IMG/VR virus record: IMGVR_UViG_3300030685_000353
Location: 1-64,000 of that record
Length of the DNA stretch: 64,000 nt
Source of the DNA: a virus
Reading direction: 5' to 3' (one strand)
Position numbers and translations under genes: made by a program. The notes beneath the pieces are model-generated. The model searched no databases. It saw only the letters and a list, made by a program, of their open reading frames with translations, and was not told where the DNA came from. Each line of letters opens with the position of its first letter. Position 1 is the first letter of the stretch. Below, piece by piece: positions 44,173 to 57,041 of the stretch.

Positions 44173-44173
44173 A

Positions 44174-44404
44174 TTACTTTACAAAATTTGGTTTTCCTTC
44201 AAATACTTCCCATGATAAGTGAATCCATCCACTAGGGATATAGTGGCTAACCATTTTACTGTCTAATATTCTATGACCTCCACTATCACTTACGTTCAAA
44301 TGTGTTGGCTTGTCTATTGTTACAGTAGCTCCATTAGCCCATCGATAAGTTCTAGATTTCTCTGAAGATATCTCTTTAAATACTAATCCACTTTCATTGT
44401 ACAT
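44174..44404 (-). CDS. Small hypothetical protein
   Basis: 76 residues, beta-rich (TYRWANGATVTIDKPTHLNV). Overlaps the upstream paralog by 11 bases. Function unknown. Confidence 0.5.
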   Translation of the reverse strand: MYNESGLVFKEISSEKSRTYRWANGATVTIDKPTHLNVSDSGGHRILDSKMVSHYIPSGWIHLSWEVFEGKPNFVK

Positions 44405-44831: not shown

Positions 44832-45274
44832 ACCAACTTCGTTAGTTTTGTAATTGATTCTTTAACATCTGACTTCACATTTTCCCATAAATCACCAATA
44901 GTAATAAGGATCGTCACTCTCACCATCATTTGATGCAAGTATGCTAGTCTCGATAGCTTATCATCAACTGGCCACCAATACCCTGAACTGAATGTAGATT
45001 CATCTAGTCTAGTTAATGGCATTTCATAGTGATGTTGTTTCGCATACTTCTTTGCTGTCTTCAAATTGAACTGAGGGATGAACTCTCCCAAACTAGTATG
45101 CGTTATTTTCCACGGTTGCTTAATGTTACCTGTGGCATTTGAGTAACTGACTAATGCAGTATAGAGATAGTAACAAAGTCCTTTATTTTGAACAGAGTCT
45201 TTCACCAATGACATAGCAATTCTGAGCACTGCTTCCTGTTCCAATAAAGTAATTTTTTTCGATTTGATTTTCAT
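44828..45274 (-). CDS. GLC/YWW-family protein (paralog 4)
   Basis: 148 residues, starting MKIKSKKITLLEQEAVLRIA. Shares KGLCYYLYTALVSYS, LGEFIPQFNLKTAKKYAKQH and GYWWPVDDKLSRLAYLHQMM with paralog 3. The conserved pattern suggests a helical fold with a Cys and aromatic core. Function unknown. Confidence 0.65.
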   Translation of the reverse strand: MKIKSKKITLLEQEAVLRIAMSLVKDSVQNKGLCYYLYTALVSYSNATGNIKQPWKITHTSLGEFIPQFNLKTAKKYAKQHHYEMPLTRLDESTFSSGYWWPVDDKLSRLAYLHQMMVRVTILITIGDLWENVKSDVKESITKLTKLV

Positions 45275-45450
45275 TTGAACTCCGTTAAGAATAGAACAAT
45301 ATAAAACATAGAATAAATCAGCATAATAGGCATTCCGATCATTATAGCTGGATATCCGTGTGTAAATTCACCATTAGTTACATAGTCCATAATTTTCCAT
45401 ATTAGGAAATAGCCTATTAGAAATAAAGTGAACCCTAAGACATAATTCAT
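45271..45450 (-). CDS. Small two-span membrane protein
   Basis: 59 residues, ATG 45450 to TGA 45271, overlapping the following ATG (ATGA). Two hydrophobic segments: VLGFTLFLIGYFLIW and AIMIGMPIMLIYSMFYIVLF. Function unknown; it is the first gene of the minus-strand run before the gene-free region. Confidence 0.5.
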   Translation of the reverse strand: MNYVLGFTLFLIGYFLIWKIMDYVTNGEFTHGYPAIMIGMPIMLIYSMFYIVLFLTEFK

Positions 45451-45639
45451 ACATTTTCATTTTGATAGAATACAATTACTAATAATTGATAGAATACAAT
45501 ATAACCAATTAGATACTCAAAAGAAACTGATTACTCTGATCAAATCTGTGTATAACTCAACATGCTTCAAAAGCTTCATAGTTGTTGGATTTGATAAGGT
45601 ATCTATGCATAGCTGCGTTACTATGGTGGTAGTTGAAGT

Positions 45640-45742
45640 AGCTGGGTACTCTGAGGTTATCTGAGGAATATCTGAGGTGATACTGAGTACTCTGAAGGAT
45701 ATCTGGGTAGTCTGAAAGAACTGAAGAATCTGATGCAGATCG
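45640..45742. repeat. Degenerate short tandem repeats (CTGAGG / ATCTG)
   Basis: At least eight imperfect units spaced ~10-13 bases, e.g. CTGAGGTTAT, CTGAGGAATAT, CTGAGGTGATA, CTGAGTACT, CTGAAGGATAT, CTGGGTAGT, CTGAAAGAA. Spacing is near one helical turn, as in protein-binding iterons. No coding frame explains it. Confidence 0.55.
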
Positions 45743-45787
45743 AACCAGGGAGAATCTAGCTTAGCCCCGCCCTATGTTCTCTGCGAG

Positions 45788-45822
45788 TTGGGCACCTATA
45801 TGCGCACCTTTGTACAAGCAGC
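45788..45822. repeat. Intergenic TGCGCA element, copy 1
   Basis: TTGGGCACCTATATGCGCAC followed by CTTTGTACAAGCAG. It contains the palindrome TGCGCA and a GTACAAGCAG half-site. The same arrangement occurs at 45908, 53600, 57094 and 59002. Confidence 0.65.
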
Positions 45823-45857
45823 TGATCCTTTTGAACAAGCTTTGCAGCTGCTTGTAC
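45812..45857. repeat. 13-bp perfect inverted repeat
   Basis: GTACAAGCAGCTG (45812-45824) and CAGCTGCTTGTAC (45845-45857) are exact inverse complements with a 20-base spacer. It could form a hairpin or bind a dimeric protein. No T tract follows, so it is not a typical terminator. Confidence 0.7.
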
Positions 45858-45907
45858 CTTACTTGCTCCTAACTGCTTGCTAAGCTGTCCACTATGTTCC
45901 CCTCAAG

Positions 45908-45942
45908 TTGGGCACCTATAGTGCGCATCTAAGTACAAGCAG
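45908..45942. repeat. Intergenic TGCGCA element, copy 2
   Basis: TTGGGCACCTATAGTGCGCA followed by TCTAAGTACAAGCAG. The preceding ~12 bases (CTATGTTCCC) also resemble those before copy 1 (CTATGTTCTC), so the duplicated unit is ~45 bases long. Confidence 0.65.
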
Positions 45943-45971
45943 TAGGTGGATGAATCACAAGCAATCTACTC

Positions 45972-46331
45972 CTAGATTGCTTCCTGTATTACAGGTGTGT
46001 TATCCATTACCAAGAATGAGGTTCCTGAAGTTCCACTTCCGTATGTACGGTAAAAGTCCTGCTTATCGAGGATGATAGAGCTTATTCTTCTCCATTCCTT
46101 CTCATCGTCATCTGTAAGCCATACCTCTGTATGACCACTTTTCCGAGTCTTAAGGGTGGATACCGTACAGTGCTTACTGTAGAAGTAATGTACTTTCTCA
46201 GTATCATGCTTGCTTTTGTAACATACGATAACTAACACCTTCATCCCTTTAGTCAGCTTATCCGGAGATAGTCTAGAGGTACGATGTTTAAGGTATTCTG
46301 CTTTCGTTGTTGGGTTAGCCATGTCTCTCAT
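45972..46331 (-). CDS. Hypothetical early protein
   Basis: 119 residues from ATG 46331 (or 46322, MANPTTKAEYLKHRT). Mixed alpha/beta with basic centre (HCTVSTLKTRKSGHTEVWLT). Ends with TAG inside an 8-bp hairpin GCAATCTA-ggag-TAGATTGC, which may terminate transcription. Overlaps the small Cys-rich gene by 4 bases. Function unknown. Confidence 0.55.
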   Translation of the reverse strand: MRDMANPTTKAEYLKHRTSRLSPDKLTKGMKVLVIVCYKSKHDTEKVHYFYSKHCTVSTLKTRKSGHTEVWLTDDDEKEWRRISSIILDKQDFYRTYGSGTSGTSFLVMDNTPVIQEAI

Positions 46332-46423
46332 ATTATATTGTTAGAGCAAAATTGACAGTTTCTTATTTTGCATGTTTTACAATCGTAAATTGATGTATTA
46401 TTATCGATCCAATCTTCTTCCAT
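46328..46423 (-). CDS. Small Cys-rich peptide
   Basis: 31 residues (MEEDWIDNNTSIYDCKTCKI RNCQFCSNNII) with C-x-x-C-x4-C-x-x-C, a likely zinc knuckle. It follows an early promoter directly, and its TGA overlaps the next ATG. Confidence 0.5.
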   Translation of the reverse strand: MEEDWIDNNTSIYDCKTCKIRNCQFCSNNII

Positions 46424-46437
46424 GTGGTTTTATTTTT

Positions 46438-46481
46438 AATTACAATACAAATATAACACATTTCTATCATAGTGGGAAACG
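46438..46481 (-). promoter_or_regulatory. Early-type promoter
   Basis: Minus strand: CGTTTCCCAC ... TATATTTGTATTGTAATT, with the -7 element TATATTTG at 46448-46455. This is one of about twenty near-identical copies in the window. Confidence 0.8.
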
Positions 46482-46562
46482 CTAGATAAAAAGAAGTGCA
46501 AGAATGAAACAGATTGATAAGACGTAGAACGAAATGACGACTTTTGGGAATGTAAGTTTCAT
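46482..46562 (-). CDS. Very small membrane peptide
   Basis: 26 residues, MKLTFPKVVISFYVLSICFI LALLFI, with one membrane span and a basic N-terminus. It ends in TAG right at the next promoter. Similar peptides occur elsewhere in the early block. Confidence 0.4.
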   Translation of the reverse strand: MKLTFPKVVISFYVLSICFILALLFI

Positions 46563-46653
46563 GTCTGTAGCATTTTGATTAGTAATAAGTACCTATTTAG
46601 GAGTCTTTAAGATTAAGGACGAATACTCGAAGGAATTGGCGTTGGATAATGGA

Positions 46654-46782
46654 TTAGATATTTAATCCGAAATCTATGAACGTAGTAGTCTTTCCTTTCA
46701 TGAAATCTCCATACGAGGGAGCTGCGATATTGTTCTTTGAACAGTAAATGCAATACAGTAACCAGAGTTTGAATGGGTTCAT
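46654..46782 (-). CDS. Small hypothetical peptide
   Basis: 42 residues (MNPFKLWLLYCIYCSKNNIA), the first half hydrophobic with two Cys. ATG 46782, TAA 46654. Lies just behind the 70-residue acidic gene. Function unknown; could be spurious. Confidence 0.35.
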   Translation of the reverse strand: MNPFKLWLLYCIYCSKNNIAAPSYGDFMKGKTTTFIDFGLNI

Positions 46783-46793
46783 ATGTCTATTTG

Positions 46794-47006
46794 TTATTCA
46801 TCTTCTTCTGATGGATCTAGTTCGATTAGTTCAAATTCCTGAAAGAGTCCTTGGACGAAAATGTCAACTTCTCGGTAGGTTTGAAGGATGTCTTTATAAC
46901 GAAGTACACATTCGATGAAATTCTCAGTACATTCTGGAGTCAAATATCCATTAGCGAGATCGATTAGATATTGACGAAGTTCTTCTAGTGTGATAGGCTG
47001 TTCCAT
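46794..47006 (-). CDS. Small acidic protein
   Basis: 70 residues, helical, pI very low (QGLFQEFELIELDPSEEDE at the end). No family recognised. An inverted repeat lies between it and the upstream gene. Confidence 0.5.
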   Translation of the reverse strand: MEQPITLEELRQYLIDLANGYLTPECTENFIECVLRYKDILQTYREVDIFVQGLFQEFELIELDPSEEDE

Positions 47007-47033
47007 GATAATGGTTTATATTAATGATGGTTC

Positions 47034-47076
47034 CAAGTTTAAGACGAATACTCGAAGGAAACGTCTTAAACTTGGT
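47034..47076. repeat. 14-bp perfect inverted repeat with conserved 18-base core
   Basis: CCAAGTTTAAGACG (47034-47047) and CGTCTTAAACTTGG (47063-47076). The core GACGAATACTCGAAGGAA (47044-47061) occurs again, exactly, at 46618-46635 without the arms. No T tract follows the stem in either direction, so it is not a clear terminator. Confidence 0.7.
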
Positions 47077-47088
47077 CTATCCTTGCTG

Positions 47089-47472
47089 TTAATGATTACG
47101 ATAGTACTCTTTGCGTCTATTTACGATTCCTCTGATGCAGCAATGTAGAGCTTCGATAGGGTCAGTGAAGAGGATGCGATCTACCATATAGCTGATGAAC
47201 TGGTCATTTCCATAATTAGCAGGGCGTTTGACTTTTATCACTGGGTTTATCTGATACATCTGATTCCAGCCGACGTGTTTAACTATTCTACGTACATATC
47301 CTGATGAATATATGCCGTAGTAGACTTTTGATTCAGTATCGAAAATGAAGATAGTTCCATTCTTCCGTTGAGTATCTGAAGAAACATCTGATATACCACC
47401 TATCTGACAAAGTGTAAGAAGAATGTGTTTTCTGATGTCGTCTGTGAGTGTGAATGTATGTGGGGTTGCCAT
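47089..47472 (-). CDS. Hypothetical early protein
   Basis: 127 residues, mixed alpha/beta (GTIFIFDTESKVYYGIYSSG; DPIEALHCCIRGIVNRRKEY). No motif recognised. Lies 4 bases behind the 33-residue membrane peptide and shares its promoter. Confidence 0.5.
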   Translation of the reverse strand: MATPHTFTLTDDIRKHILLTLCQIGGISDVSSDTQRKNGTIFIFDTESKVYYGIYSSGYVRRIVKHVGWNQMYQINPVIKVKRPANYGNDQFISYMVDRILFTDPIEALHCCIRGIVNRRKEYYRNH

Positions 47473-47476
47473 AATA

Positions 47477-47578
47477 TTAAGAACAGATGATTTGACCTAC
47501 TACATAGAATACAAGGCATGAAAAGAGGGTGATTTCCCAAGGAGAAGATTTTTTGATGAGTTGTTTGATACGTTTCAT
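47477..47578 (-). CDS. Very small membrane peptide
   Basis: 33 residues (MKRIKQLIKKSSPWEITLFS CLVFYVVGQIICS): basic N-terminus and one membrane span. It is the first gene behind an early promoter. Confidence 0.5.
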   Translation of the reverse strand: MKRIKQLIKKSSPWEITLFSCLVFYVVGQIICS

Positions 47579-47589
47579 ATTGTTTAATT

Positions 47590-47636
47590 TTTAATTACAA
47601 TACAAATATAATACAATTCTATCAAGTGGGGAAACG
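47590..47636 (-). promoter_or_regulatory. Early-type promoter
   Basis: TATATTTGTATTGTAATT with -7 element at 47603-47610 and the distal CGTTTCCCC at 47632 on the minus strand. Confidence 0.8.
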
Positions 47637-47644
47637 TAAGATGA

Positions 47645-47806
47645 TTAATCTTGAAAATGTTTTATCGAACTGTCTTCGTCTTCTTCATCCTTTTCGATGT
47701 TGGTTGAAAAGGACTTGTCGTAGTCCTCTTCTTCCTTATCTATGTTAACAGAGAAGTTATCGTAGTCATCCTCTTCTTCTTTCCAATCACTTCCAAATAG
47801 TGTCAT
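47645..47806 (-). CDS. Small, extremely acidic protein
   Basis: 53 residues with about 21 Asp/Glu against five Lys, arranged as a twice-repeated unit (NFSVNIDKEEEDYDKSF and STNIEKDEEDEDSS). ATG overlaps the preceding TAA (TAATG). Such charge is typical of DNA-mimic antirestriction proteins, but no homology is claimed. Confidence 0.5.
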   Translation of the reverse strand: MTLFGSDWKEEEDDYDNFSVNIDKEEEDYDKSFSTNIEKDEEDEDSSIKHFQD

Positions 47807-48324
47807 TAGTCTATCAGAAATTTGAGGCGGTACATTCTTGTGTTGCCATTATCGTAAGGGTCATTGATGATTCCGTGGAATATCCAAAGGTCATCTGATT
47901 CCACTCTATCAGTAGCATCTAGGATACATTTAGTTATTTCGCGAAGGGAAGTAGGAGCGTTGTCCACTTTGATATCGATTGCGATATCACAATCTTCTGT
48001 GGCCCTGCCATTGTTTTTAACAGATGAACAATAGATTTTATGACCGTAAAATTTGAGGGACTTTTCCAGTTTGGCTTTCTGTTTCAGAAGAAGTTCGTGA
48101 CGAGGATCGATTACTGTGACATCTACTGTTTCTTTGTAGTTCTCAATGTCATTGAAGATCGTGGAAGAGTTAATTCCAGTACAAATTGAAAGCATATTGG
48201 CCATGTCTGAATGAGTAAAGATCGGATCATTCGATAGATGGTTATGAGCGTTCTTGATAAGAAGTTTGTAGTGCTCTTTAATGTGTCGTTTATCGACTTC
48301 TAATTGTGAGGGAATATTGTTCAT
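47806..48324 (-). CDS. Hypothetical early protein, possible nucleotidyltransferase-like
   Basis: 172 residues. The segment NNGRATEDCDIAIDIKVD resembles the minimal nucleotidyltransferase motif (G-x-A-x-x-x-S/C-D-x-D-x-x-V), though the usual G-S pair is absent, so this is weak. Own early promoter. Coupled to the acidic 53-residue gene. Confidence 0.5.
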   Translation of the reverse strand: MNNIPSQLEVDKRHIKEHYKLLIKNAHNHLSNDPIFTHSDMANMLSICTGINSSTIFNDIENYKETVDVTVIDPRHELLLKQKAKLEKSLKFYGHKIYCSSVKNNGRATEDCDIAIDIKVDNAPTSLREITKCILDATDRVESDDLWIFHGIINDPYDNGNTRMYRLKFLID

Positions 48325-48337
48325 AAGTTTTATTTTT

Positions 48338-48381
48338 AATTACAATACAAATTTAATACAATTCTATCAATATTGAAAACG
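48338..48381 (-). promoter_or_regulatory. Early-type promoter
   Basis: Variant TAAATTTGTATTGTAATT (-7 at 48348-48355) with distal CGTTTTC. Confidence 0.75.
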
Positions 48382-48387
48382 CTGGAG

Positions 48388-48894
48388 CTATAATTTTTGC
48401 AGTTCAGAGAGTCGAATTCTTATCCTTGCAAGTTCTTCATCAGTGTAAGTGCCCGGGATGATATTTTGAGGATTTATGCGACTCCAAACGACTTTGCCGT
48501 CATGTATTAAGTCCCATGATATAAATTGGTTAAATCTGAGCTCTTTCTTTTTACCTTTCTTTCTGAGTATGAGAAGGTCATTATCAAGTCCGTAGCTTCC
48601 GAAGATGTAGCATTCGCATTCTTGAGCGGTTTGGAAGCAGTGGATTGAATCATCCTGGTATTCGTGTAATCGAATAGTGACTTTATCTCCAGGTTTGAGT
48701 CCCATACTCTCAAGGTGTGCTTGGCCGTAGATTTCTTCTTTCTTTTTGTAACTTTCTAATACGGCTAATTCACTTTCACAAATATGATCGATCTGTTCCG
48801 CTGTAAGTAGACAACGGGTAGTTTGGAAGTACCTCATTCCCATATATTCTCTTACTTCTTGAGTCATGTAGTCCCAAAGTTCTGTTTTTGTCAT
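48388..48894 (-). CDS. Hypothetical early protein
   Basis: 168 residues. A beta segment after a helical N-terminus (MGLKPGDKVTIRLHEYQDDS) looks like an SH3-like barrel start. C-terminus helical (LARIRIRLSELQKL). Ends in TAG. Function unknown. Confidence 0.5.
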   Translation of the reverse strand: MTKTELWDYMTQEVREYMGMRYFQTTRCLLTAEQIDHICESELAVLESYKKKEEIYGQAHLESMGLKPGDKVTIRLHEYQDDSIHCFQTAQECECYIFGSYGLDNDLLILRKKGKKKELRFNQFISWDLIHDGKVVWSRINPQNIIPGTYTDEELARIRIRLSELQKL

Positions 48895-48895
48895 C

Positions 48896-49072
48896 TTAGC
48901 GTTGATTACGTGAATTGTAGCGATCGATTGTCTCTTGATCAGTTTGACCGGGTCTGGCTTCTATTTGAACTCCTTTTGCCACTGTAACCATGCGTCCTTT
49001 TATTACTCCCATTGCTAGTTTCGTAGCTGGTACTTTACTTTTGTATACTCCGTATTTTGTATTATTGTCCAT
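48896..49072 (-). CDS. Small hypothetical early protein
   Basis: 58 residues from ATG 49072 (MDNNTKYGVYKSKVPATKLA). The frame to 49120 runs through the promoter (giving YYICIVI) and is rejected. Basic, with GRMVTVAKGVQIEARPG. Confidence 0.55.
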   Translation of the reverse strand: MDNNTKYGVYKSKVPATKLAMGVIKGRMVTVAKGVQIEARPGQTDQETIDRYNSRNQR

Positions 49073-49085
49073 ATTGATTGTTTTA

Positions 49086-49131
49086 TTAATTACAATACAA
49101 ATATAATACAATTCTATCAAAGTGGGAAAAG
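49086..49131 (-). promoter_or_regulatory. Early-type promoter
   Basis: TATATTTGTATTGTAATT with distal CTTTTCCC, directly before the gene starting at 49072. Confidence 0.8.
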
Positions 49132-49140
49132 CTTGATAAA

Positions 49141-49362
49141 CTAAAATCCGTCGAATCCTAAAGTTACTGCCTCTTTGAGGTTTGCAACTTTTTTGGCGTT
49201 AGGGTACGTGGTCATGATTTCTTCCTCTGTGAGGATATTGTGAACAAGAACTTCTCCATGTAACATGCATGCTACGTATTTCTGAGAAGCGACAGCCTTA
49301 CCGAAAGTAGCGTACGTTTTATCGACTGGTAAAAAGTAGAGGTTTCCTATTGTGAATAACAT
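49141..49362 (-). CDS. Small hypothetical early protein
   Basis: 73 residues from ATG 49362 (MLFTIGNLYFLPVDKTYATF). The long frame up to 49527 overlaps the upstream gene and is rejected. Beta-rich start, helical end (NAKKVANLKEAVTLGFDGF). Confidence 0.55.
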   Translation of the reverse strand: MLFTIGNLYFLPVDKTYATFGKAVASQKYVACMLHGEVLVHNILTEEEIMTTYPNAKKVANLKEAVTLGFDGF

Positions 49363-49370
49363 AATTTGTC

Positions 49371-49715
49371 TTATTTTGTGGATGGTGTGATTGGTAGAAT
49401 GTAAACGTATCCATCGTATCCTTTGCATTTCCCTGAAGTGCAAGAAACGTAAGAAATAAGGTAATAAAAAGCCTCTGGGCGTTCTGAGTTTTCTGATTGG
49501 AGGAAAACTGATTGGTGAACAGAGCATCCTGATGGATATCTATTCTCTACTCTGGTTTCTGGATCGCCATACCAAGTGACTAATTGATGGGCTGCATTCC
49601 ATAGATTGTCTCCTTGTTTAACTGGAGTTCCGAAATCTGCTGCATCCTCGAAGATTTTAACTGCTCTTTTTTCTAAAAGTGCTTTACAATGGAATCCTTC
49701 TTTATATACTGACAT
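49371..49715 (-). CDS. Hypothetical early protein
   Basis: 114 residues from ATG 49715 (MSVYKEGFHCKALLEKRAVK); the ORF extension to 49754 is promoter sequence. Contains a Gly/Cys-rich C-terminal third (SYVSCTSGKCKGYDGYVYIL). Function unknown. Confidence 0.55.
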   Translation of the reverse strand: MSVYKEGFHCKALLEKRAVKIFEDAADFGTPVKQGDNLWNAAHQLVTWYGDPETRVENRYPSGCSVHQSVFLQSENSERPEAFYYLISYVSCTSGKCKGYDGYVYILPITPSTK

Positions 49716-49729
49716 AATGTATGATATTT

Positions 49730-49774
49730 TAATTACAATACAAATATAATACAATTCTATCAGTATGGGAAACG
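49730..49774 (-). promoter_or_regulatory. Early-type promoter
   Basis: TATATTTGTATTGTAATT (-7 at 49741-49748), distal CGTTTCCCA. Confidence 0.8.
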
Positions 49775-49778
49775 CTAA

Positions 49779-50201
49779 TCAATTTTTTGACAATTTTATT
49801 TTTCGTGCAAGTTCTTCATATGAATAGTCTCCAACTACTGCATCCATTATGAGAACATCGGGTGATTCAATGTTAGTACCCTTTCCATTGATAGTATCTC
49901 CTTTGGCGTAAGTATTATGTAAGGCGTTCGTAATGCCACTTTGTGAATAATAATGCAGAGTGCCATTGCCATCCTTTACGATTATGTCGTACATAGCGGA
50001 ATATCCTACTACAATAATCGGTCGTTTCAGAGTATTGAGTTCATGACATACGTACTCATTATACTCATCGATATTTTGGGGTGAAGCTACTTTACGAAAG
50101 TCTTTGTCAACTTGGTAGATCGTGCCTATTGTGAATCCCATATATGCATTGCCTGCCATTAAAAATAGTGCTATTGCACCGATGATCAGTATCTTTTTCA
50201 T
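49779..50201 (-). CDS. Exported or membrane-anchored early protein
   Basis: 140 residues. N-terminal signal-like segment MKKILIIGAIALFLMAGNAY; the rest is soluble-looking (PIIVVGYSAMYDIIVKDGNG). Probably anchored in or secreted across the inner membrane. Shares the promoter of the gene at 50204, 2 bases behind it. Confidence 0.6.
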   Translation of the reverse strand: MKKILIIGAIALFLMAGNAYMGFTIGTIYQVDKDFRKVASPQNIDEYNEYVCHELNTLKRPIIVVGYSAMYDIIVKDGNGTLHYYSQSGITNALHNTYAKGDTINGKGTNIESPDVLIMDAVVGDYSYEELARKIKLSKN

Positions 50202-50203
50202 GT

Positions 50204-50794
50204 TTAAAATTTTGAAATAGGAAAGTGGAACGGAAATCTTGATTGGTATGCGGATTGTCTACGTAAGAACTTTAGTTCTCCTTCTTCTCTTTCTCTGTGA
50301 AGGTCTAAGAGGTCCTTTTCGCGATCAGATTGATTAACATATACTCTGATTCTGCCATTTAAACAGAAACCGAACGTTTGTCCTTTATTTATTTCTACAT
50401 TTCCCGTGACCATATTAGTGATTGGGAATGTAATAACTATGCCATCTCTAGGGGTTTGAGTTACCGCTTGGACGCGTTCAGTAACTGATACAGGTTCTTT
50501 ATCACCAAAGAAGTGTAGGCAATAAATTGTATCACCAGCTTTAACATCTTCAAGTTCTTTATAGTCGAGGCGGTTGGCTTTTGCCATAATGTCAGCTGCT
50601 AGAGCTTTACATTTCTCGATTATTTCTGGTTGGTAAGGTAGACATTTTCCAGCCTTCCATTCTTTGCCACCGACTGTGACTTCTGTCTTTTCTGGGACTC
50701 CCGAAGGTAAATCACCACTGTACTGAATAAAGGCTCTGAATACTCCTGTATTCGTGAATCGAACCGTGATGTGTACTTTATTTGTTGTGTTCAT
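50204..50794 (-). CDS. Hypothetical early protein
   Basis: 196 residues from ATG 50794 (MNTTNKVHITVRFTNTGVFR); the longer frame runs into the promoter. Beta-rich with LEDVKAGDTIYCLHFFGDKE, then a charged helical end. Function unknown. Confidence 0.55.
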   Translation of the reverse strand: MNTTNKVHITVRFTNTGVFRAFIQYSGDLPSGVPEKTEVTVGGKEWKAGKCLPYQPEIIEKCKALAADIMAKANRLDYKELEDVKAGDTIYCLHFFGDKEPVSVTERVQAVTQTPRDGIVITFPITNMVTGNVEINKGQTFGFCLNGRIRVYVNQSDREKDLLDLHREREEGELKFLRRQSAYQSRFPFHFPISKF

Positions 50795-50808
50795 TTGATT
50801 TATAATTT

Positions 50809-50852
50809 GATTACAATACAAATATAATACAATTCTAATGAAGTGAGAAACG
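50809..50852 (-). promoter_or_regulatory. Early-type promoter
   Basis: TATATTTGTATTGTAATC (-7 at 50819-50826), distal CGTTTCTC. Confidence 0.8.
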
Positions 50853-50857
50853 TAAGT

Positions 50858-51094
50858 TTACAATTTTGTAACTATAGCGTCTGGAACGACTTCTTTTATT
50901 GCGATATCTAAAAATTCGTGACCAGTGTTAAATGCGACTAACATGTGGTTAGTTATATGTCCTGTTTCGATTAAGATAGTAGCTATTTGGCTATAATCTA
51001 ATCGTTTACGTATCAGGACAAGAACTTCAGGGTTCTGACATGTTATCTGAAGTCCATTCGGCGTTTGATCTCTATTTATTGTTATCAGTGTCAT
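50858..51094 (-). CDS. Small hypothetical early protein
   Basis: 78 residues (MTLITINRDQTPNGLQITCQ). It overlaps the upstream gene by 23 bases. Mixed alpha/beta. Function unknown. Confidence 0.5.
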   Translation of the reverse strand: MTLITINRDQTPNGLQITCQNPEVLVLIRKRLDYSQIATILIETGHITNHMLVAFNTGHEFLDIAIKEVVPDAIVTKL

Positions 51095-51377
51095 TTTGTT
51101 CTCTTCGTGCTTTGCGTAGTTTAACCAATTCTGAATAGTTAATAAGTGTCATGTCATACATTCCTTTTGGCCACCGTGAAAGTTCGGCATTCTCATTGAA
51201 CGTAAGTTTATCGTCTTCGTGCATTATATAATACTCCTGAGTGAGGTTCGCTTTAAGGAGGTCTATTTGGAAAGAAGTTAGTTCAACGTCATTGTTCAAA
51301 ACTCCAGCATATTTGTCATCTTTCGTATAGACCCTTAGGATAGGGTATGTGTATCTTCTAATTGGGAACTTTTTCAT
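51072..51377 (-). CDS. Small hypothetical early protein
   Basis: 101 residues (MKKFPIRRYTYPILRVYTKD), basic N-terminus, helical C-terminus (ELVKLRKARREQNDTDNNK). 6 bases behind the lipoprotein gene. Function unknown. Confidence 0.5.
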   Translation of the reverse strand: MKKFPIRRYTYPILRVYTKDDKYAGVLNNDVELTSFQIDLLKANLTQEYYIMHEDDKLTFNENAELSRWPKGMYDMTLINYSELVKLRKARREQNDTDNNK

Positions 51378-51383
51378 AGTTGA

Positions 51384-51755
51384 TTATTTTGTTGTTACAA
51401 ATTCGAGTTCGTCTCCGTATACTGTGCTGTATTTAGTTGTGATATATGCACGAATATAATATTTTGTGTTCGGTTGGAGGTCGCTTAAGTTGGCAGTAAA
51501 AGTGATTGGAGTTTTGGCCTTTTCAAACAATTCTTGATTCAGTGACATAATTTTGGTATCACGAATAGTGGGTTGTGGATGTGTAGACCAGACTACTCCA
51601 GTTTCTGTTAAAGAGCTTACATGAATGCCGTATCCACCAGATGTCGCATAATTAGCGGAAATCTTGGTTACGGGCGTTGTACTGATATACTGTGTGGTCT
51701 CTGATGTACAACTGAGAGTGAAAAGGATAAGGGCGAAGAGGATATACTTTTTCAT
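51384..51755 (-). CDS. Lipoprotein with fibronectin III-like domain
   Basis: 123 residues from ATG 51755 (MKKYILFALILFTLSCTSET). A short signal peptide is followed by Cys and polar residues, a lipoprotein signal of the Bacteroidota type. The mature part has GVVWSTHPQPTI and LQPNTKYYIRAYITTKY plus YGDELEFVTT, the FN3-like repeat common in Bacteroidota surface lipoproteins. A phage-borne surface lipoprotein expressed early suggests superinfection exclusion. Its start overlaps the stop of a 29-residue membrane peptide (TAATG). Confidence 0.75.
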   Translation of the reverse strand: MKKYILFALILFTLSCTSETTQYISTTPVTKISANYATSGGYGIHVSSLTETGVVWSTHPQPTIRDTKIMSLNQELFEKAKTPITFTANLSDLQPNTKYYIRAYITTKYSTVYGDELEFVTTK

Positions 51756-51844
51756 TATAAATGGAATAAGATGATGAATACTAATCCTAAGATAATTGAA
51801 AGTGCCACGAGGCAAATTTTCTGATAAGTAGTGAAGCGTTTCAT
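51755..51844 (-). CDS. Very small membrane peptide
   Basis: 29 residues (MKRFTTYQKICLVALSIILG LVFIILFHL), one membrane span. Its TAA overlaps the lipoprotein ATG, so translation of the two is coupled. It directly follows an early promoter. Confidence 0.55.
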   Translation of the reverse strand: MKRFTTYQKICLVALSIILGLVFIILFHL

Positions 51845-51855
51845 ATTGTTATGTT

Positions 51856-51901
51856 TTAATTACAATACAAATATAATACAATTCTATCAGTTTGGGAAAC
51901 G
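51856..51901 (-). promoter_or_regulatory. Early-type promoter
   Basis: TATATTTGTATTGTAATT (-7 at 51868-51875), distal CGTTTCCCA; drives the membrane peptide/lipoprotein pair. Confidence 0.8.
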
Positions 51902-51907
51902 TAAGCA

Positions 51908-51945
51908 AAAAAAAAGAAGAGAACTGAGTCCCTTCTTCTTTTTAA
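51908..51945 (-). terminator. Rho-independent terminator
   Basis: The minus strand reads AAAGAAGA-...-TCTTCTTTTTTTTTG with a ~13-base loop, behind the gene ending at 51957. Confidence 0.7.
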
Positions 51946-51956
51946 CAGATTGTTTT

Positions 51957-52640
51957 TTATTTAGCTATAAAGTGAACTGAAAGCATACCGGGTGAGTCTG
52001 TGGCTGGAGCGATCATTACGTCTTTCCAACCGGCTTCCAAGTAGAGTGCCTTGACTTCTTCTAGAATATCGGTGCTTATGCCCTTTGCGTTAATAAAAGA
52101 GTGAATGAAACCGTCTTCTCTAACGTCTTTCGGGTTAGCGTCTTTAACATGAGCTTCGAAGATTGCCACTGTTTCTTCAAGGGAAAGATCGGGGAAGAAC
52201 TTTTTAGGCCCGGTTACAGAGAATGGGCTTTCTTCTCCTACTGGAGGAAGAGAAATGGGCCAGATACCAACCATATCGGCTTCTTTAACTTCATATCCTG
52301 AATCATGGGCTAATGCTTGAGCTTCTATGAATCCGATTCGAGTTCCTGGTGCATTAACCAGTACGGCATAGAATGATTCAGGGTCTCCATTATGAATATC
52401 AAAGACTACGAGGTGGTTTGGATCGGGCATACCTCTGTGTACTGGAATCAACCAACTTTCTGGATAACCAAATTTGTCATCTTCTTCAATGAGGTTCATT
52501 TGAGGATGTGACCTTAATAGAAAGGTGATGTTAATGTTGTTCTTTTCGAAGCCGGAAATACTCCAATTTCTGTTTGATATGAGGATGCAGGGGTTACATC
52601 TTGCATCTGAAATTTCTGATTTGAAAATAATTTTGTCCAT
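51957..52640 (-). CDS. Hypothetical early protein
   Basis: 227 residues, acidic, mixed alpha/beta (PESFYAVLVNAPGTRIGFIE; LEETVAIFEAHVKDANPKDV). The phrase NAPGTRIGFI is echoed by NAPGGRIAFI in the gene at 42347, hinting at a distant shared domain. Own promoter and terminator. Function unknown. Confidence 0.55.
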   Translation of the reverse strand: MDKIIFKSEISDARCNPCILISNRNWSISGFEKNNINITFLLRSHPQMNLIEEDDKFGYPESWLIPVHRGMPDPNHLVVFDIHNGDPESFYAVLVNAPGTRIGFIEAQALAHDSGYEVKEADMVGIWPISLPPVGEESPFSVTGPKKFFPDLSLEETVAIFEAHVKDANPKDVREDGFIHSFINAKGISTDILEEVKALYLEAGWKDVMIAPATDSPGMLSVHFIAK

Positions 52641-52654
52641 TTGATTTTATTATT

Positions 52655-52699
52655 TGATTACAATACAAATATAATACAATTCTAACGAAGTGTAAAACG
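52655..52699 (-). promoter_or_regulatory. Early-type promoter
   Basis: TATATTTGTATTGTAATC, distal CGTTTTAC, directly before the gene at 52640. Confidence 0.8.
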
Positions 52700-52701
52700 T
52701 A

Positions 52702-53064
52702 TCAATAATTATGTAATCTAAGTGTGTGGTCGATATAAAAATCTACAAGGGACTCGATGAATCCATTTCCTTTCGGGAGGTACAGTTCAGAATAATCGTT
52801 GGTTAAAATTTCTTCACGTTTTCCCATTATTGTAACTGTGATGCATTCCTCGTTTGAACCGAAAGTCTTCGTGAATTGTTGGAACTCGTACTTTTCAGTT
52901 ATTTCGTCACCATTTCTGAATTTAATGGAGATGTCTGATTCGCATTCGTCTACAGTACCGGTTACTTCTTCTACGAGGTGATGCCATCTCCAATTTTCGA
53001 CATTTCCTGCTTCTGCCTTGATTACAGTGGCATCACCTTGTAGTTTTAAAAGTGTCTTTAACAT
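52702..53064 (-). CDS. Hypothetical early protein
   Basis: 120 residues, beta-rich (SDISIKFRNGDEITEKYEFQ; EECITVTIMGKREEI). Overlaps the upstream gene by 7 bases. Function unknown. Confidence 0.5.
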   Translation of the reverse strand: MLKTLLKLQGDATVIKAEAGNVENWRWHHLVEEVTGTVDECESDISIKFRNGDEITEKYEFQQFTKTFGSNEECITVTIMGKREEILTNDYSELYLPKGNGFIESLVDFYIDHTLRLHNY

Positions 53065-53297
53065 TTCTTTTTCCCTTTCTTTTTCTCAATTAGAGGTTTA
53101 GGGGCTAAAGAAGATCGGAACCATGCTGCATTTGCGAAAGAAAATTCTGGTGCTTCTTCTTTTTGAAAGAGTTCAGGGTGGCGGGTTCCTGATGCTATGG
53201 ATTGTGCTACGGCAGAATTTGTGTCTACCGAACGTGCTGAATGTTTAAATCCTGATAAAGTTTTGTCTTGTACGTCTCCGATATGTCCTGATCTCAT
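53058..53297 (-). CDS. Small basic early protein
   Basis: 79 residues from ATG 53297 (MRSGHIGDVQDKTLSGFKHS); the longer frame is promoter sequence. Very basic C-terminus (IEKKKGKKKC). Possibly nucleic-acid binding. Confidence 0.5.
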   Translation of the reverse strand: MRSGHIGDVQDKTLSGFKHSARSVDTNSAVAQSIASGTRHPELFQKEEAPEFSFANAAWFRSSLAPKPLIEKKKGKKKC

Positions 53298-53321
53298 AAT
53301 GTATAATTTTATATTGTTGTT

Positions 53322-53368
53322 TTTAATTACAATACAAATATAATACAATTCTAACAGTGTAGGAAACG
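53322..53368 (-). promoter_or_regulatory. Early-type promoter
   Basis: TATATTTGTATTGTAATT, distal CGTTTCCTA. Confidence 0.8.
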
Positions 53369-53381
53369 CTACTCAATTTAT

Positions 53382-53564
53382 TTATTCATGATGTTTTTTA
53401 CAATTATAAATCCGTGCTCTTCTGGAACGTACTATTGAGGTGACTACTGCAATAATGATCGATTCTGCATTGATCAAGATTACGTCCCCTATTTTCGGTC
53501 TGATGCGGTCTGAATTGAACTGTGTCGTTCGACCTCTGTGCAAAATCTTGATTATATGTTTCAT
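53382..53564 (-). CDS. Small basic hypothetical protein
   Basis: 60 residues from ATG 53564 (MKHIIKILHRGRTTQFNSDR); ATG 53606 is also in frame but lies closer to the TGCGCA element. The sequence RPKIGDVILINAESIIIAVV suggests a small beta barrel. Function unknown. Confidence 0.45.
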   Translation of the reverse strand: MKHIIKILHRGRTTQFNSDRIRPKIGDVILINAESIIIAVVTSIVRSRRARIYNCKKHHE

Positions 53565-53599
53565 GTGGCTTAGCAGACGCATAAGGCTTTGTGCCTTTG

Positions 53600-53638
53600 T
53601 GCCCATATAGTGCGCAATGTTTGTCTTAAATGTACAAG
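53600..53638. repeat. Intergenic TGCGCA element, copy 3
   Basis: GTGCCCATATAGTGCGCA followed after 16 bases by TGTACAAG. It adjoins the hairpin at 53641-53671. Confidence 0.55.
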
Positions 53639-53640
53639 AA

Positions 53641-53671
53641 ACTGCATCCTTATAATTGTTAAGGATGCAGT
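53641..53671. terminator. Perfect 12-bp hairpin, probable terminator
   Basis: ACTGCATCCTTA-taattgt-TAAGGATGCAGT, followed on plus by TTTTAT and on minus by TTCTTGTACATTT. It sits behind the KAEK-rich gene and next to a TGCGCA element. Confidence 0.75.
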
Positions 53672-53692
53672 TTTTATATTTCCTTACCCGGA

Positions 53693-54265
53693 TTAATTAT
53701 GGGCTAGGATGGCTTTTTTCAATTTGAAAATCTTTTTGTTACCTTCGATTTCGATACGTAACCATTCATCTCCTTTTTCATCTTTGTCGTAAACTTTCAG
53801 GAGTTTTCCTTCTTGAACCCCGGCTGATCGGAATTTTGAATTTCGGGCTGGGAGGAATGATACGATTTGGTCAGCTTTAAGAGCGGTTTCCGGAGTCATA
53901 AGGTTGGTGGCGTTCGGTGTGATACCATCGATAACTTTCGGAGTAAGTTTTACCTTTGCAGGTTTTTCAGCTTTTGGTGTTACCACTTTTTCAGCTTTTA
54001 CTTTGGCCACTTTTTCAGCTTTTGGTTTTTCAGTTTTTTCCTTGGCTACCTTTTCAGTTTTAGGTGCTTCTGTTTTTTCAGCTTTTGGTTTGGCCACTTT
54101 TTCAGCTTTTGGTTTTTCAACTTTTGCCTTTGGAGCTGTTTTTTCGTTACGAGATGCTACGATTTCTTGGGCTGAGGCTAAATCTTCAGGAGATAAGTTA
54201 CCAGTAGCGATTTTTTTGTTAAGTTCAGTTGTACTGAATTTTGACATTGGGTTTGTTGTTGACAT
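53693..54265 (-). CDS. Lys/Ala/Pro-rich histone-H1-like protein
   Basis: 190 residues. Residues ~45-115 are repeats of K-A-E-K and K-P-K-A-E-K-[VT] (e.g. EKPKAEKVAKPKAEKTEAPK), like bacterial AlgP/histone-H1-like C-terminal domains. The last ~70 residues are a compact domain (SAGVQEGKLLKVYDKDEKGD; WLRIEIEGNKKIFKLKKAIL). The first ~40 form a helical segment. Three tandem promoters precede it, implying strong early expression. Non-specific DNA binding or host nucleoid remodelling is likely but inferred. Confidence 0.65.
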   Translation of the reverse strand: MSTTNPMSKFSTTELNKKIATGNLSPEDLASAQEIVASRNEKTAPKAKVEKPKAEKVAKPKAEKTEAPKTEKVAKEKTEKPKAEKVAKVKAEKVVTPKAEKPAKVKLTPKVIDGITPNATNLMTPETALKADQIVSFLPARNSKFRSAGVQEGKLLKVYDKDEKGDEWLRIEIEGNKKIFKLKKAILAHN

Positions 54266-54309
54266 AATTTCTAAGTTTTTGGAAGTTTATAAAATTGTTA
54301 TTGATTAAT

Positions 54310-54350
54310 TACTATACAAAAATAATACTTTTTGAATGAATGGTAAAAAG
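54310..54350 (-). promoter_or_regulatory. Tandem promoter P1 of the KAEK-rich gene
   Basis: The minus strand reads AAAAAGTATTATTTTTGTATAGTAATT; -7 element TATTTTTG. Confidence 0.7.
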
Positions 54351-54398
54351 TATTTCAAATTATTTTTTCGTTTTGTAAAAGAAATGTTTAGTTTGATT

Positions 54399-54440
54399 TA
54401 CTATACAAAAATAATACTTTTTGACTGAATGGTAAAAAGT
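54399..54440 (-). promoter_or_regulatory. Tandem promoter P2 of the KAEK-rich gene
   Basis: The same TATTTTTGTATAGTAAAT core, within a near-exact ~95-base duplication of the P1 region. Confidence 0.7.
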
Positions 54441-54485
54441 ATTTCAAATTATTTTTTACGTTAAAAAATAATGTTTGGTTTGATT

Positions 54486-54526
54486 TACTATACAAAAATA
54501 ATACTATTCTATAGGTTAGTAAAACG
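54486..54526 (-). promoter_or_regulatory. Tandem promoter P3 of the KAEK-rich gene
   Basis: Third copy of TATTTTTGTATAGTAAAT; its distal part (CGTTTTACTAACC) matches the CGTTT block of the other early promoters. Confidence 0.7.
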
Positions 54527-54537
54527 TATCGAAAAAA

Positions 54538-54759
54538 TTATTCCTCTATAATAAGTTTATTTTCGAACATAGAAGGAAATTCGGTAACGTTCTCACCTTC
54601 TATTTCTAGCATCTTACATACTATTTTTTCTTGCTTGTCATGGACAGTAATTTTGCCGTACGAATCAAATTGAAGCTCTATGCCTAATTTAGTCATCAGG
54701 TCTTCAATCTGTCTGAGTTTCTGAGTTGTTGGATGTGTCTCCAGTAGTCGCTTTGCCAT
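54538..54759 (-). CDS. Small hypothetical early protein
   Basis: 73 residues from ATG 54759 (MAKRLLETHPTTQKLRQIED). ATG 54771 and 54696 are also in frame. The longer forms overlap the membrane peptide gene at 54704 by 56-68 bases. Mixed helix/beta (LGIELQFDSYGKITVHDKQE). Function unknown. Confidence 0.5.
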   Translation of the reverse strand: MAKRLLETHPTTQKLRQIEDLMTKLGIELQFDSYGKITVHDKQEKIVCKMLEIEGENVTEFPSMFENKLIIEE

Positions 54760-54859
54760 CTTTGTGATCATTTATTAGTGGTACAAATATCATTAGTGCT
54801 AGTAAAAGTGTAGCGACTAAGAATGAAAAAATTAACTCTTCGAAAATATTGAGTTCCAT
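54704..54859 (-). CDS. Small membrane protein
   Basis: 51 residues with one span (IFSFLVATLLLALMIFVPLI) and a polar tail. Starts in a TAATG overlap with the upstream small gene. Function unknown. Confidence 0.45.
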   Translation of the reverse strand: MELNIFEELIFSFLVATLLLALMIFVPLINDHKDGKATTGDTSNNSETQTD

Positions 54860-54957
54860 TAGTCGAGGATTTCAAATTCTGCTTCCTCTACAACTCTAAC
54901 TTCTGCTGTGGCGAGGTAAATGAATACCAAAAGTGCCATAATTTCAAGATCTGTCAT
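54859..54957 (-). CDS. Very small membrane peptide with acidic tail
   Basis: 32 residues (MTDLEIMALLVFIYLATAEV RVVEEAEFEILD). First gene behind an early promoter. Confidence 0.45.
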   Translation of the reverse strand: MTDLEIMALLVFIYLATAEVRVVEEAEFEILD

Positions 54958-54970
54958 ATTATTGTTATGT

Positions 54971-55017
54971 TTTAATTACAATACAAATATAATACAATTC
55001 TATCAGCTGGGGAAAAG
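54971..55017 (-). promoter_or_regulatory. Early-type promoter
   Basis: TATATTTGTATTGTAATT, distal CTTTTCCCC. Confidence 0.8.
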
Positions 55018-55022
55018 TCTGG

Positions 55023-55319
55023 TCAATAATTTTGTTTTAACCAAGACTTGAAGCTATTCTTTTTATTTCGTTGATCGTTTTGAGTCTTAAGCGTGGCATA
55101 GAATATGTCGTACTCTTTATAAATTTCATCCCAACTTGGCTTCGTGAAGTCGTTTTTAGGATAGGAATACATTTCGTACCCTAATCGATCTACCAATTTA
55201 CGGGCTGAGGCTTTCATTTCGTCATCGTGACAATCATTTTGATAATTTCCTAATGCCACTGCTATTAAAGCTATCTCTTTACACGATAGTTTCGTTTTTA
55301 TTACTCCATTAATGTCCAT
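55023..55319 (-). CDS. Small hypothetical early protein
   Basis: 98 residues, helical (LSCKEIALIAVALGNYQNDC; DDEMKASARKLVDRLG). Lies 2 bases behind the 71-residue gene. Function unknown. Confidence 0.5.
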   Translation of the reverse strand: MDINGVIKTKLSCKEIALIAVALGNYQNDCHDDEMKASARKLVDRLGYEMYSYPKNDFTKPSWDEIYKEYDIFYATLKTQNDQRNKKNSFKSWLKQNY

Positions 55320-55321
55320 AA

Positions 55322-55537
55322 TTATCTGTATAAAATTACATGTTCACCGAAATATTTTTCAAATACACTTATAAGATTCTCGTAATCTCCAGAGGTTAAT
55401 TCAGCTTGAATTGCGTCGTGGTCGAGGCCGAGTTGTTTAGATAAGTCGCTGGCATATCCAAGTAATACAAATGCATTGCCTTGTGGTCCAGTCAGATCTA
55501 GACTTGGATATTCCGGTTCAATTTTTTTCCTTATCAT
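55322..55537 (-). CDS. Small hypothetical early protein
   Basis: 71 residues, with LDLTGPQGNAFVLLGYASDL then LGLDHDAIQAELTSGDYENL. The phrase GPQGNAF...A...L recalls uncharacterised phage proteins involving a 'GPEGNAF' start. Function unknown. Confidence 0.55.
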   Translation of the reverse strand: MIRKKIEPEYPSLDLTGPQGNAFVLLGYASDLSKQLGLDHDAIQAELTSGDYENLISVFEKYFGEHVILYR

Positions 55538-55549
55538 TTTTTTATTATT

Positions 55550-55594
55550 TGATTACAATACAAATATAATACATTTCTAACAAATGGTAAAAAG
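55550..55594 (-). promoter_or_regulatory. Early-type promoter
   Basis: TATATTTGTATTGTAATC (-7 at 55561-55568), distal CTTTTTAC. Confidence 0.8.
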
Positions 55595-55600
55595 CTTTAC

Positions 55601-56395
55601 TTAAAAACCGAACTTTTTTCCTAAAATTTGTCCCCGTCTTGTATGAACCTCTTCATGTGATAATAATACTATACATTCATTTCGCTTCAATTCATTGTAG
55701 CCGCTTCTCCATTTCTTGTAGAGCAGATCTGCAGCTTTATCCCATCCTTCTTGGGTTTCAGCGATGAATGCCTTATCCTCGTAAAATAAAAATGCATTCC
55801 CTTTAACACCTATTGTAGCATTTTGATTCATTTTGGCATATCCATAACCATTGAACTGTGCCCATGAATTTCGAGTACATATTAATCTCATTGTGAAAAA
55901 GTTACTCAAGTCAAATAGTTCATTTTTCGAGTCGATTATTACAAAATGAGGCAATGTTAATAAAATGCCAACCTCAGTGTCAGAGTTTATGTAACTTATA
56001 TTGAAGCCAGCTTTTTTGTATTTTTTTAATTCAGTGTGCTTTGCCTTACGGAGTAAAGATTCAGAGTCAATATTTAATTCTCTAAGGCGTTGCTCCTCTT
56101 CATTTTGTTTTATCCTTTTAAGGAGCTTTAATAACCCATTCTTCCACCCTTCTAAAGTGTCAGGAATAAAACTTACGCATGGTCTATTGTCGCAATTTAT
56201 TTTTCCGCCATGATAAATTTGATATGACACTTTATAATCATCATTATTGTATCGCTGACGTGATTTTAAGGCCTTTATTTTAAATGTCGTTACAGCTTGC
56301 CTATTCGTTCTAATATTCTCAAAGCCCATCTTCAGAATCTCTTGATATTCAGGGAGGTTCTCAATTACTTTGCGGGTGGTTTCATCAATAATCAT
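55601..56395 (-). CDS. Hypothetical early protein with C-terminal KFGF tail
   Basis: 264 residues. Two related-looking halves: FIPDTLEGWKNGLLKLLKRI and FIAETQEGWDKAADLLYKKW, each after a beta region, suggesting an internal duplication. The end is TRRGQILGKKFGF, the third instance of the shared tail. It has its own early promoter. Function unknown. Confidence 0.6.
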   Translation of the reverse strand: MIIDETTRKVIENLPEYQEILKMGFENIRTNRQAVTTFKIKALKSRQRYNNDDYKVSYQIYHGGKINCDNRPCVSFIPDTLEGWKNGLLKLLKRIKQNEEEQRLRELNIDSESLLRKAKHTELKKYKKAGFNISYINSDTEVGILLTLPHFVIIDSKNELFDLSNFFTMRLICTRNSWAQFNGYGYAKMNQNATIGVKGNAFLFYEDKAFIAETQEGWDKAADLLYKKWRSGYNELKRNECIVLLSHEEVHTRRGQILGKKFGF

Positions 56396-56407
56396 AAAAG
56401 TTATTTT

Positions 56408-56452
56408 TAATTACAATACAAATATAATACAATTCTTCCAACTGGCAAAAAG
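56408..56452 (-). promoter_or_regulatory. Early-type promoter
   Basis: TATATTTGTATTGTAATT, distal CTTTTTGCC; drives the KFGF-tail gene at 55601. Confidence 0.8.
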
Positions 56453-56465
56453 TAAACATAAAAAA

Positions 56466-56495
56466 GTGGCCCCTCTTCACAGAGAAACCACCCGG
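56466..56495 (-). terminator. Terminator behind the tRNA-like cluster
   Basis: The minus strand reads GTGG-ttt-CTCTgtgaAGAG-ggg-CCACTTTTTT, a stem followed by six T residues. Confidence 0.65.
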
Positions 56496-56533
56496 TGGCC
56501 GAAGCCGTGTAATCAAAAATCTTATGAAACTCT

Positions 56534-56624
56534 TGGTGCCGAGGGAGGGTTACGATTCCTCATTCCTTCGTCAGAAGGACTTACACAGCAGCTGAAGCCA
56601 TGTCTACCATTAGTTTACCTCGGC
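56534..56624 (-). tRNA. tRNA-Leu-like gene, anticodon CAG, with encoded CCA
   Basis: Minus strand: a perfect 7-bp acceptor stem GCCGAGG/CCTCGGC, discriminator A and encoded CCA. The anticodon arm is ATGGC-TTCAGCT-GCTGT (anticodon CAG) and a long variable arm has the hairpin TCCTTC-TGAC-GAAGGA, giving the class II shape expected for Leu. Weak points: the D stem is poorly paired and the T loop reads ATCGTAA instead of TTCnAnn. Confidence 0.55.
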
Positions 56625-56688
56625 CACACTCCGTCCGATTATTACGAACCAAATCGATTATGGCATAGCCAATCGGAGGGCAGTGTGG
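56624..56688. ncRNA. Structured RNA candidate between tRNA-like genes
   Basis: Nested complementary arms CCACACT/AGTGTGG (ends) and CCGATT/AATCGG (inside), with a small GGC-tat-GCC hairpin on the minus strand. At 65 bases it is too short for a normal tRNA. It is flanked by tRNA-like genes, so it could be a highly reduced tRNA or another structured element. Confidence 0.35.
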
Positions 56689-56691
56689 GAT

Positions 56692-56707
56692 TGTTTTGAT
56701 CAAAACA
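56692..56707. repeat. 16-bp perfect palindrome
   Basis: TGTTTTGATCAAAACA, self-complementary over all 16 bases, between two tRNA-like genes. It could be a dimer binding site. Confidence 0.6.
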
Positions 56708-56725
56708 GACGGTGATCAGCCATCG

Positions 56726-56792
56726 TGGGGTTAGCAGAATCGAACTACTCTTTGCCGTGCACTAGCCGTCCTAACCGATAGACGAAACCCCC
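56726..56792 (-). tRNA. tRNA-like remnant (Glu-like D arm, shortened anticodon arm)
   Basis: Minus strand: acceptor GGGGGTT/AACCCC (first pair mismatched), D arm GTCT-ATCGGTTA-GGAC like tRNA-Glu, and T arm AGTAG-TTCGATT-CTGCT with 5 pairs. Between D and T arms only 18 bases remain where 22-23 are needed, so no proper anticodon stem can form. It is probably a decayed tRNA or a tRNA mimic. Confidence 0.45.
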
Positions 56793-56825
56793 AGAGTGTA
56801 TAGCTATACCACTCCTTTCTGTCCT

Positions 56826-57041
56826 TTAGCAGGACATAATGCTTGTCGTAGCCATTGTATTTAACGAATTTGCAATAACGTTAGCTACGTTACTTATATT
56901 TTTCTTTGTCACCTTACCTCCTACATATACACGTGATACTTCTACTTTATCGAGGTGTATTCCTGTGTCTACTTTGACCTCTGTTACCTCCACTATACGA
57001 TATGTATTAACGGTATGTTCTTCTGCAATGTAATGTGCCAT
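56826..57041 (-). CDS. Small hypothetical early protein
   Basis: 71 residues (MAHYIAEEHTVNTYRIVEVT), beta-rich and then helical. A TGTCC-tgctaa-AGGACA hairpin overlaps its stop codon. Own TATTTTTG promoter. Function unknown. Confidence 0.5.
   Translation of the reverse strand: MAHYIAEEHTVNTYRIVEVTEVKVDTGIHLDKVEVSRVYVGGKVTKKNISNVANVIANSLNTMATTSIMSC

Follow-up and report, generated by a model that had tools for sequence, protein, structure and literature searches.

Two overlapping genes behind a host-type promoter

At positions 51384-51844 of the window (the whole 64,000-nucleotide stretch of DNA that was analysed), two small genes follow each other, one for a membrane peptide and one for a predicted lipoprotein. 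The pair is real and lies where the preliminary description had placed it, on the minus strand, which that description left unstated; the TAA of the peptide and the ATG of the lipoprotein share one A, giving the TAATG overlap already described. Both start codons have an A at -3 (read from the sequence), a context reported as favoured in F. johnsoniae (PMC6847099). The pair apparently heads a four-gene unit, with the following features in order of transcription:

51904-51946, minus strand: A/U-rich hairpin with a U tract behind it (folding energy -16.5 kcal/mol, z -3.6)
51894-51900, minus strand: GTTTCCC in the place of the -33 element, kept in most of the promoter set (spacing read from the sequence)
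51868-51875, minus strand: -7 element TATATTTG, of the TANNTTTG type (exact core copies and profile matches)
51755-51844, minus strand: membrane peptide of 29 aa, 29 codons (open reading frame, hydrophobicity, codon score)
51384-51755, minus strand: predicted lipoprotein of 123 aa, ATG at 51755 (lipobox, FN3-like homology, fold)
51072-51377, minus strand: 101-aa protein, next gene of the apparent unit, its ATG 6 bases past the lipoprotein stop
50858-51094, minus strand: 78-aa protein, final gene ahead of the following promoter (core 50829)

For the 101-aa protein, the family search gave nothing at the gathering score.

The promoter of the pair is one of 10 copies of an exact 20-base core, TATTATATTTGTATTGTAAT, all of which lie on the minus strand; its core is at 51878, and the peptide ORF begins 14 bases after it. 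A promoter profile trained on these 10 copies, so that they match by construction, gave 27 matches in 73.5 kb, again all on the minus strand and all but one (26/27) at 46-73 kb. Fourteen of the 27 are strong (profile score >50), and the pair sits directly behind one of these. The form of the promoter fits the -33/-7 consensus reported for Bacteroidota, TTTG/TANNTTTG (PMC6847099). The preliminary description had both genes follow an early promoter: a Bacteroidota-type promoter copy does stand upstream of both, and early transcription of the pair is suggested by the promoter type and by the clustering of these host-type promoters away from the virion genes that were recognised. At 54300-54520, three diverged promoter-like copies are arranged in tandem (54327, 54416, and 54503), two of them without a start codon within 100 bases. 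The hairpin at 51904-51946 is likely the terminator of the upstream gene for a 227-aa protein (51957-52640) and marks the beginning of a new transcription unit; it was not listed by a terminator scan that requires G+C, and Rfam found nothing over 42000-57000.

The virus record from which the window was taken comprises 73,505 bases in total, with a G+C content of 34%. Genes for a tail sheath, large terminase, clamp loader, ribonucleotide reductase and NAD-dependent ligase were recognised. The sheath, terminase and tail-fibre genes are found at 12-17 and 36-38 kb (tail-fibre-like gene at 36642-37946), away from the promoter block. In the phage collection, the sheath is closest to those of an uncultured 462-kb phage, Flavobacterium phage MaF61, Lak phages and Tenacibaculum phages, at roughly 29-37% identity. 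Since neither an integrase nor a repressor was found among the 20 proteins scanned with PHROGs, the phage is likely a lytic, T4-like myovirus, although the record is a fragment; no tRNA was found. The one other contig with the 28-base promoter represents the same phage (99.9-99.97% identical) and stops at window position 48910; it is thus no independent witness and does not cover the region of the pair. Two adjoining genes at 44394-44831 and 44828-45274 are paralogous, with 68% identical DNA over about 270 bases.

The membrane peptide and the lipoprotein

The peptide (MKRFTTYQKICLVALSIILGLVFIILFHL) has a basic N terminus with three basic residues, followed by a single hydrophobic segment (about residues 10-28) that extends to the C-terminal end; it is single-pass, and no domain follows the membrane segment. 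Its hydrophobicity (KD) is 2.92, and its codon score of 0.098 fits coding sequence (0.27±0.15) better than the wrong frame (-0.93±0.47). Four ORFs of 20-60 aa with KD>=2.8 are present on the minus strand and none on the plus strand, against 0.17±0.37 in 30 mononucleotide shuffles. Further very hydrophobic ORFs on this strand, of 26-34 aa, lie at 46482-46562, 42262-42357 and 63433-63537.

It is possible, if short of probable, that the peptide is only a leader whose translation determines how much lipoprotein is made, with no role besides, an estimate that concerns the peptide alone, is outside the sum for the other readings and is compatible with each of them. The direct TAATG overlap agrees with such a role, as does the presence of another tiny peptide likewise positioned behind the promoter at 47613, and without the peptide, the leader ahead of the lipoprotein gene would measure about 108 bases, compared with 13-17 bases after the core for most genes behind this promoter. 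However, the peptide is strongly hydrophobic and ORFs of this kind outnumber those in shuffles, which suggests that insertion into the membrane has been selected for. The second tiny membrane peptide (33 aa, MKRIKQLIKKSSPWEITLFSCLVFYVVGQIICS) is encoded at 47474-47575, directly behind the promoter core; its promoter and first codons, compared on the twin contig, share 86% identity with 51816-51905 over 93 positions, and the cassette front at 47613/51878 looks as if duplicated.

The lipoprotein begins with a signal peptide, MKKYILFALILFTLS (residues 1-15), which is followed by Cys16, its only cysteine and the predicted lipid anchor. The lipobox ...FTLS-C16 matches a PS51257-type pattern, and a basic n-region, a hydrophobic h-region and the lipobox Cys are all present, as predicted for a bacterial lipoprotein. 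The short signal with its Cys noted in the preliminary description is thereby recovered by pattern, while the Pfam model LPAM_1 (E 0.027, 15.4 bits vs a cut-off of 20) and the Pfam model fn3 (E 0.023) stay below their cut-offs. The mature chain has 108 residues and contains one FN3-like domain (about residues 23-120). That this sequence is FN3-like and of Bacteroidota type is borne out by genome matches and by the predicted fold. At E<=1e-5, the domain was found in 61 of 395 Bacteroidota genomes; the best match (E 9.9e-16, 37% identity) is a 157-aa single-domain protein without a lipobox, and the second best (E 6.6e-14) is a 267-aa lipoprotein of which the mature part begins CSGSDEDE. One genome (G002) has 43% identity over residues 24-122, and a close-relative scan of genome contigs confirmed 3 of 201 pattern stretches.

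AlphaFold, given eight sequences, predicts an FN3 sandwich (pLDDT 82.6). The top structural match of this model is the RsgI4 sensor domain (7cg8; Z 11.4, rmsd 2.7 over 96); Bacteroides DUF3823 (4eiu; Z 10.6, rmsd 2.2 over 100) follows further down, and many other FN3 domains match at Z about 10, whereas by sequence no PDB chain matches at E<=1. With the FN3-like repeats of Bacteroidota lipoproteins (SusD-neighbour, sulfatase-like and similar), the phage protein shares the fold and the hallmark residues ETGVVWST..P.., L.PNT.YY.RAY, and YG.E..F.T. Unlike those repeat proteins, it is phage-encoded and stand-alone, with a single copy of the domain, a weak export signal and an extra loop at residues 66-84, while most host proteins with the domain have several hundred residues or more. 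The loop comprises about eight residues: at least four residues are missing there in 238 of 270 alignments (several per protein and hence non-independent), eight being the commonest value.

Distribution and origin of the domain

Among viruses, the FN3-like domain was found in 78 loci, nine of which carry a lipobox, all in proteins of at least 338 aa; none of the eight closed ORFs of <=250 aa has one. The strict pattern missed lipoprotein-looking rows (L004, L034, L044 and L047), so these lipobox counts are lower bounds. No match to the lipoprotein at E<=1 exists in six related phage records, and no FN3 match in the five of these scanned with Pfam and PHROGs. Small predicted lipoproteins are nonetheless encoded by three of the four related phages surveyed (three in PAU, two in pT24, one in PTm1, and none in MaF61). 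These phages are related myoviruses as judged by the sheath, and their lipoproteins likewise lack a named function; they differ in that they do not match the window lipoprotein, and no coupled hydrophobic micropeptide lies beside the small lipoproteins of the phages surveyed. A phage lipoprotein as such is thus ordinary, and a compact FN3 version preceded by a coupled membrane peptide turned up a single time. In PTm1, ORF-088 (AP019524.1 68500-70500, L108) is annotated from 69477; starting instead at the in-frame ATG at 69438 gives the protein a lipoprotein signal peptide and a resemblance to pT24 BPT24_296.

The lipoprotein gene looks private to this phage. In viral contigs, a single-protein query with the lipoprotein gave 19 pattern stretches, of which none was confirmed; queries with the upstream 227-aa protein and the DNA ligase confirmed no relatives, and a DNA search of 49000-53500 gave no match among phages. 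Contig L137, which shares the sample number of the twin contig, has no promoter copies, and its DNA kinship does not go beyond chance. Two matches labelled 'Bacteriophage sp.' (MT836136.1, L003; MT838140.1, L004) were rejected as phage relatives on their gene content, which looks bacterial: SusD-like, FN3-repeat lipoprotein and glycosidase-like genes (named by eye). Another phage match, H3, belongs to a 735-kb phage and is a long protein of FN3 repeats.

Host homologs had been proposed as a sign of capture. The homologs exist in the 61 genomes mentioned above, and capture of the domain from a host is plausible; the tree could not place the source, be it a host or another phage. In this tree (quick method, 146 rows, 100 columns), the lipoprotein has no supported position and belongs to no supported set, and its end branch measures 1.97 against a median of 0.53.

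Candidate roles in the host envelope

Building on the gene layout, promoter copies, lipobox pattern, domain homology and fold model, we tentatively put forward that the pair is a module acting early on the envelope: the lipoprotein would bind a receptor and close it, Llp of phage T5 being the functional model, and the peptide would serve as a coupling device or inner-membrane partner. The steps would be: I) the host polymerase transcribes the pair soon after infection, starting at the phage's version of the main host promoter; II) the 29-aa peptide enters the inner membrane and, via TAATG, its translation promotes that of the lipoprotein; III) signal peptidase II processes the lipoprotein, which is carried to the outer membrane, by default to the periplasmic face; IV) the FN3 domain, whose extra loop is specific to the phage, attaches to a protein of the host envelope, the likeliest being an outer-membrane transporter that serves phages as receptor; and V) once bound, the lipoprotein prevents any further adsorption or entry of DNA, in the way that T5 Llp acts on FhuA. 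Llp is reported to be a small phage lipoprotein that closes the TonB-dependent receptor FhuA from the periplasmic face (PMC9586334), and exclusion therefore needs no surface display. The occurrence of other small predicted lipoproteins in three of the four surveyed related phages agrees with the model. Against it, no PDB chain is kin by sequence, and FN3, being a generic binding scaffold, says little on function; the family searches returned no exclusion or defence family, and since the six related phage records lack a match, nothing shows that the gene has been kept for a role.

Like Llp and Cor, the window protein is a small phage lipoprotein with a lipoprotein signal, from a probably lytic phage and apparently expressed early; by its predicted lipobox it may be an outer-membrane lipoprotein like those of that group. 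It differs in its FN3 fold, its 108-residue mature chain, its Bacteroidota host and the coupled membrane peptide before it. The intramolecular disulfide of these proteins (Cys11-Cys58 in Llp; PMC9586334) has no counterpart, because the single Cys is the lipid anchor. Whereas the Llp/Cor gene lies beside a receptor-binding gene, no such gene adjoins here, and the tail-fibre-like gene is 13 kb away; another receptor-binding gene may lie beyond this fragment. By these sequence features (no second Cys, not beside a receptor-binding gene), the lipoprotein is not a member of the Llp/Cor group; the absence of Llp (8A60) among the structural matches listed says nothing either way. A more specific version of the receptor-closing model, in which the phage would have cut a host-type FN3 lipoprotein to a single domain, added a new loop and coupled its translation to an inner-membrane micropeptide, so that a two-membrane exclusion unit obstructs a TonB-dependent receptor, SusC-type or other, on its periplasmic side, is improbable as a whole.

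Superinfection exclusion in Bacteroidota phages seems hardly described, and among the titles and abstract openings of the open-access papers searched none on a lipoprotein-based form was found. A stand-alone FN3 lipoprotein is a small, concrete exclusion candidate, of a fold that hosts use widely on their envelope; if it acts in exclusion, Llp-type receptor closure would extend to another fold and phylum.

Almost as likely as the receptor-closing module is a general role as an envelope accessory without exclusion, in which the lipoprotein would stabilise the envelope, alter nutrient-uptake complexes or neutralise an envelope-based host defence. The domain occurs in host lipoproteins, one of them directly after a SusD-like gene (in MT836136.1), and in glycan enzymes, and the several unrelated small predicted lipoproteins of the related phages suggest varied roles. 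An NCBIfam arabinosidase model also matches residues 21-122 (E 8e-8), but far below its cut-off and over about 100 of its 639 positions, and no catalytic or glycan-binding module accompanies the single FN3 domain.

Display on the cell surface, where the lipoprotein would be flipped outwards and mask a receptor from outside, is unlikely. The export signals (LES) of Bacteroidota surface lipoproteins are described as at least two acidic residues closely following the Cys, namely K-(D/E)2 or Q-A-(D/E)2 in C. canimorsus, SDDDD in B. fragilis and SDDFE in F. johnsoniae, the single-acid signals KD and KE being very weak in C. canimorsus (PMC5080379). The mature protein starts C-T-S-E-T-T-Q, with one acidic residue in the export-signal window, and none of these motifs occurs right after Cys+1. 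Leaving aside rows in which the frame continued past the end of the locus, 11 distinct lipobox-bearing host relatives were compared; six have at least three acidic residues at +2..+7, acidic export signals being frequent in host FN3-like lipoproteins. The other five have one or none, weak signals thus occurring in such lipoproteins anyway, and the missing signal is therefore only mild evidence for the periplasmic face. Of the early remodelling of the host surface that had been proposed, envelope targeting is supported, as predicted from the lipoprotein signal and the membrane peptide, and surface exposure is not supported.

It is very unlikely that the FN3 domain decorates the virion, as FN3-like domains often do in phages: 69 of the 78 viral loci with the domain lack a lipobox and many are long and structural-looking (products not assigned singly), yet this protein has a lipoprotein signal, an early-type promoter and a distance of at least 13 kb from recognised virion genes. 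A lysis role, in which the two proteins would make up a two-component spanin or the lipoprotein would by itself be a unimolecular one, is scarcely credible in spite of a gene layout reported for two-component spanins, in which an inner-membrane protein and a lipoprotein are encoded side by side or in overlap (PMC6139136): an i-spanin is defined there by a periplasmic domain after the membrane segment, while the segment of this peptide reaches the C terminus; the promoter type and region point to early expression; and the lipoprotein, unlike the proline-rich Rz1, is a folded FN3 domain and ends in its last FN3 strand rather than in a membrane segment.
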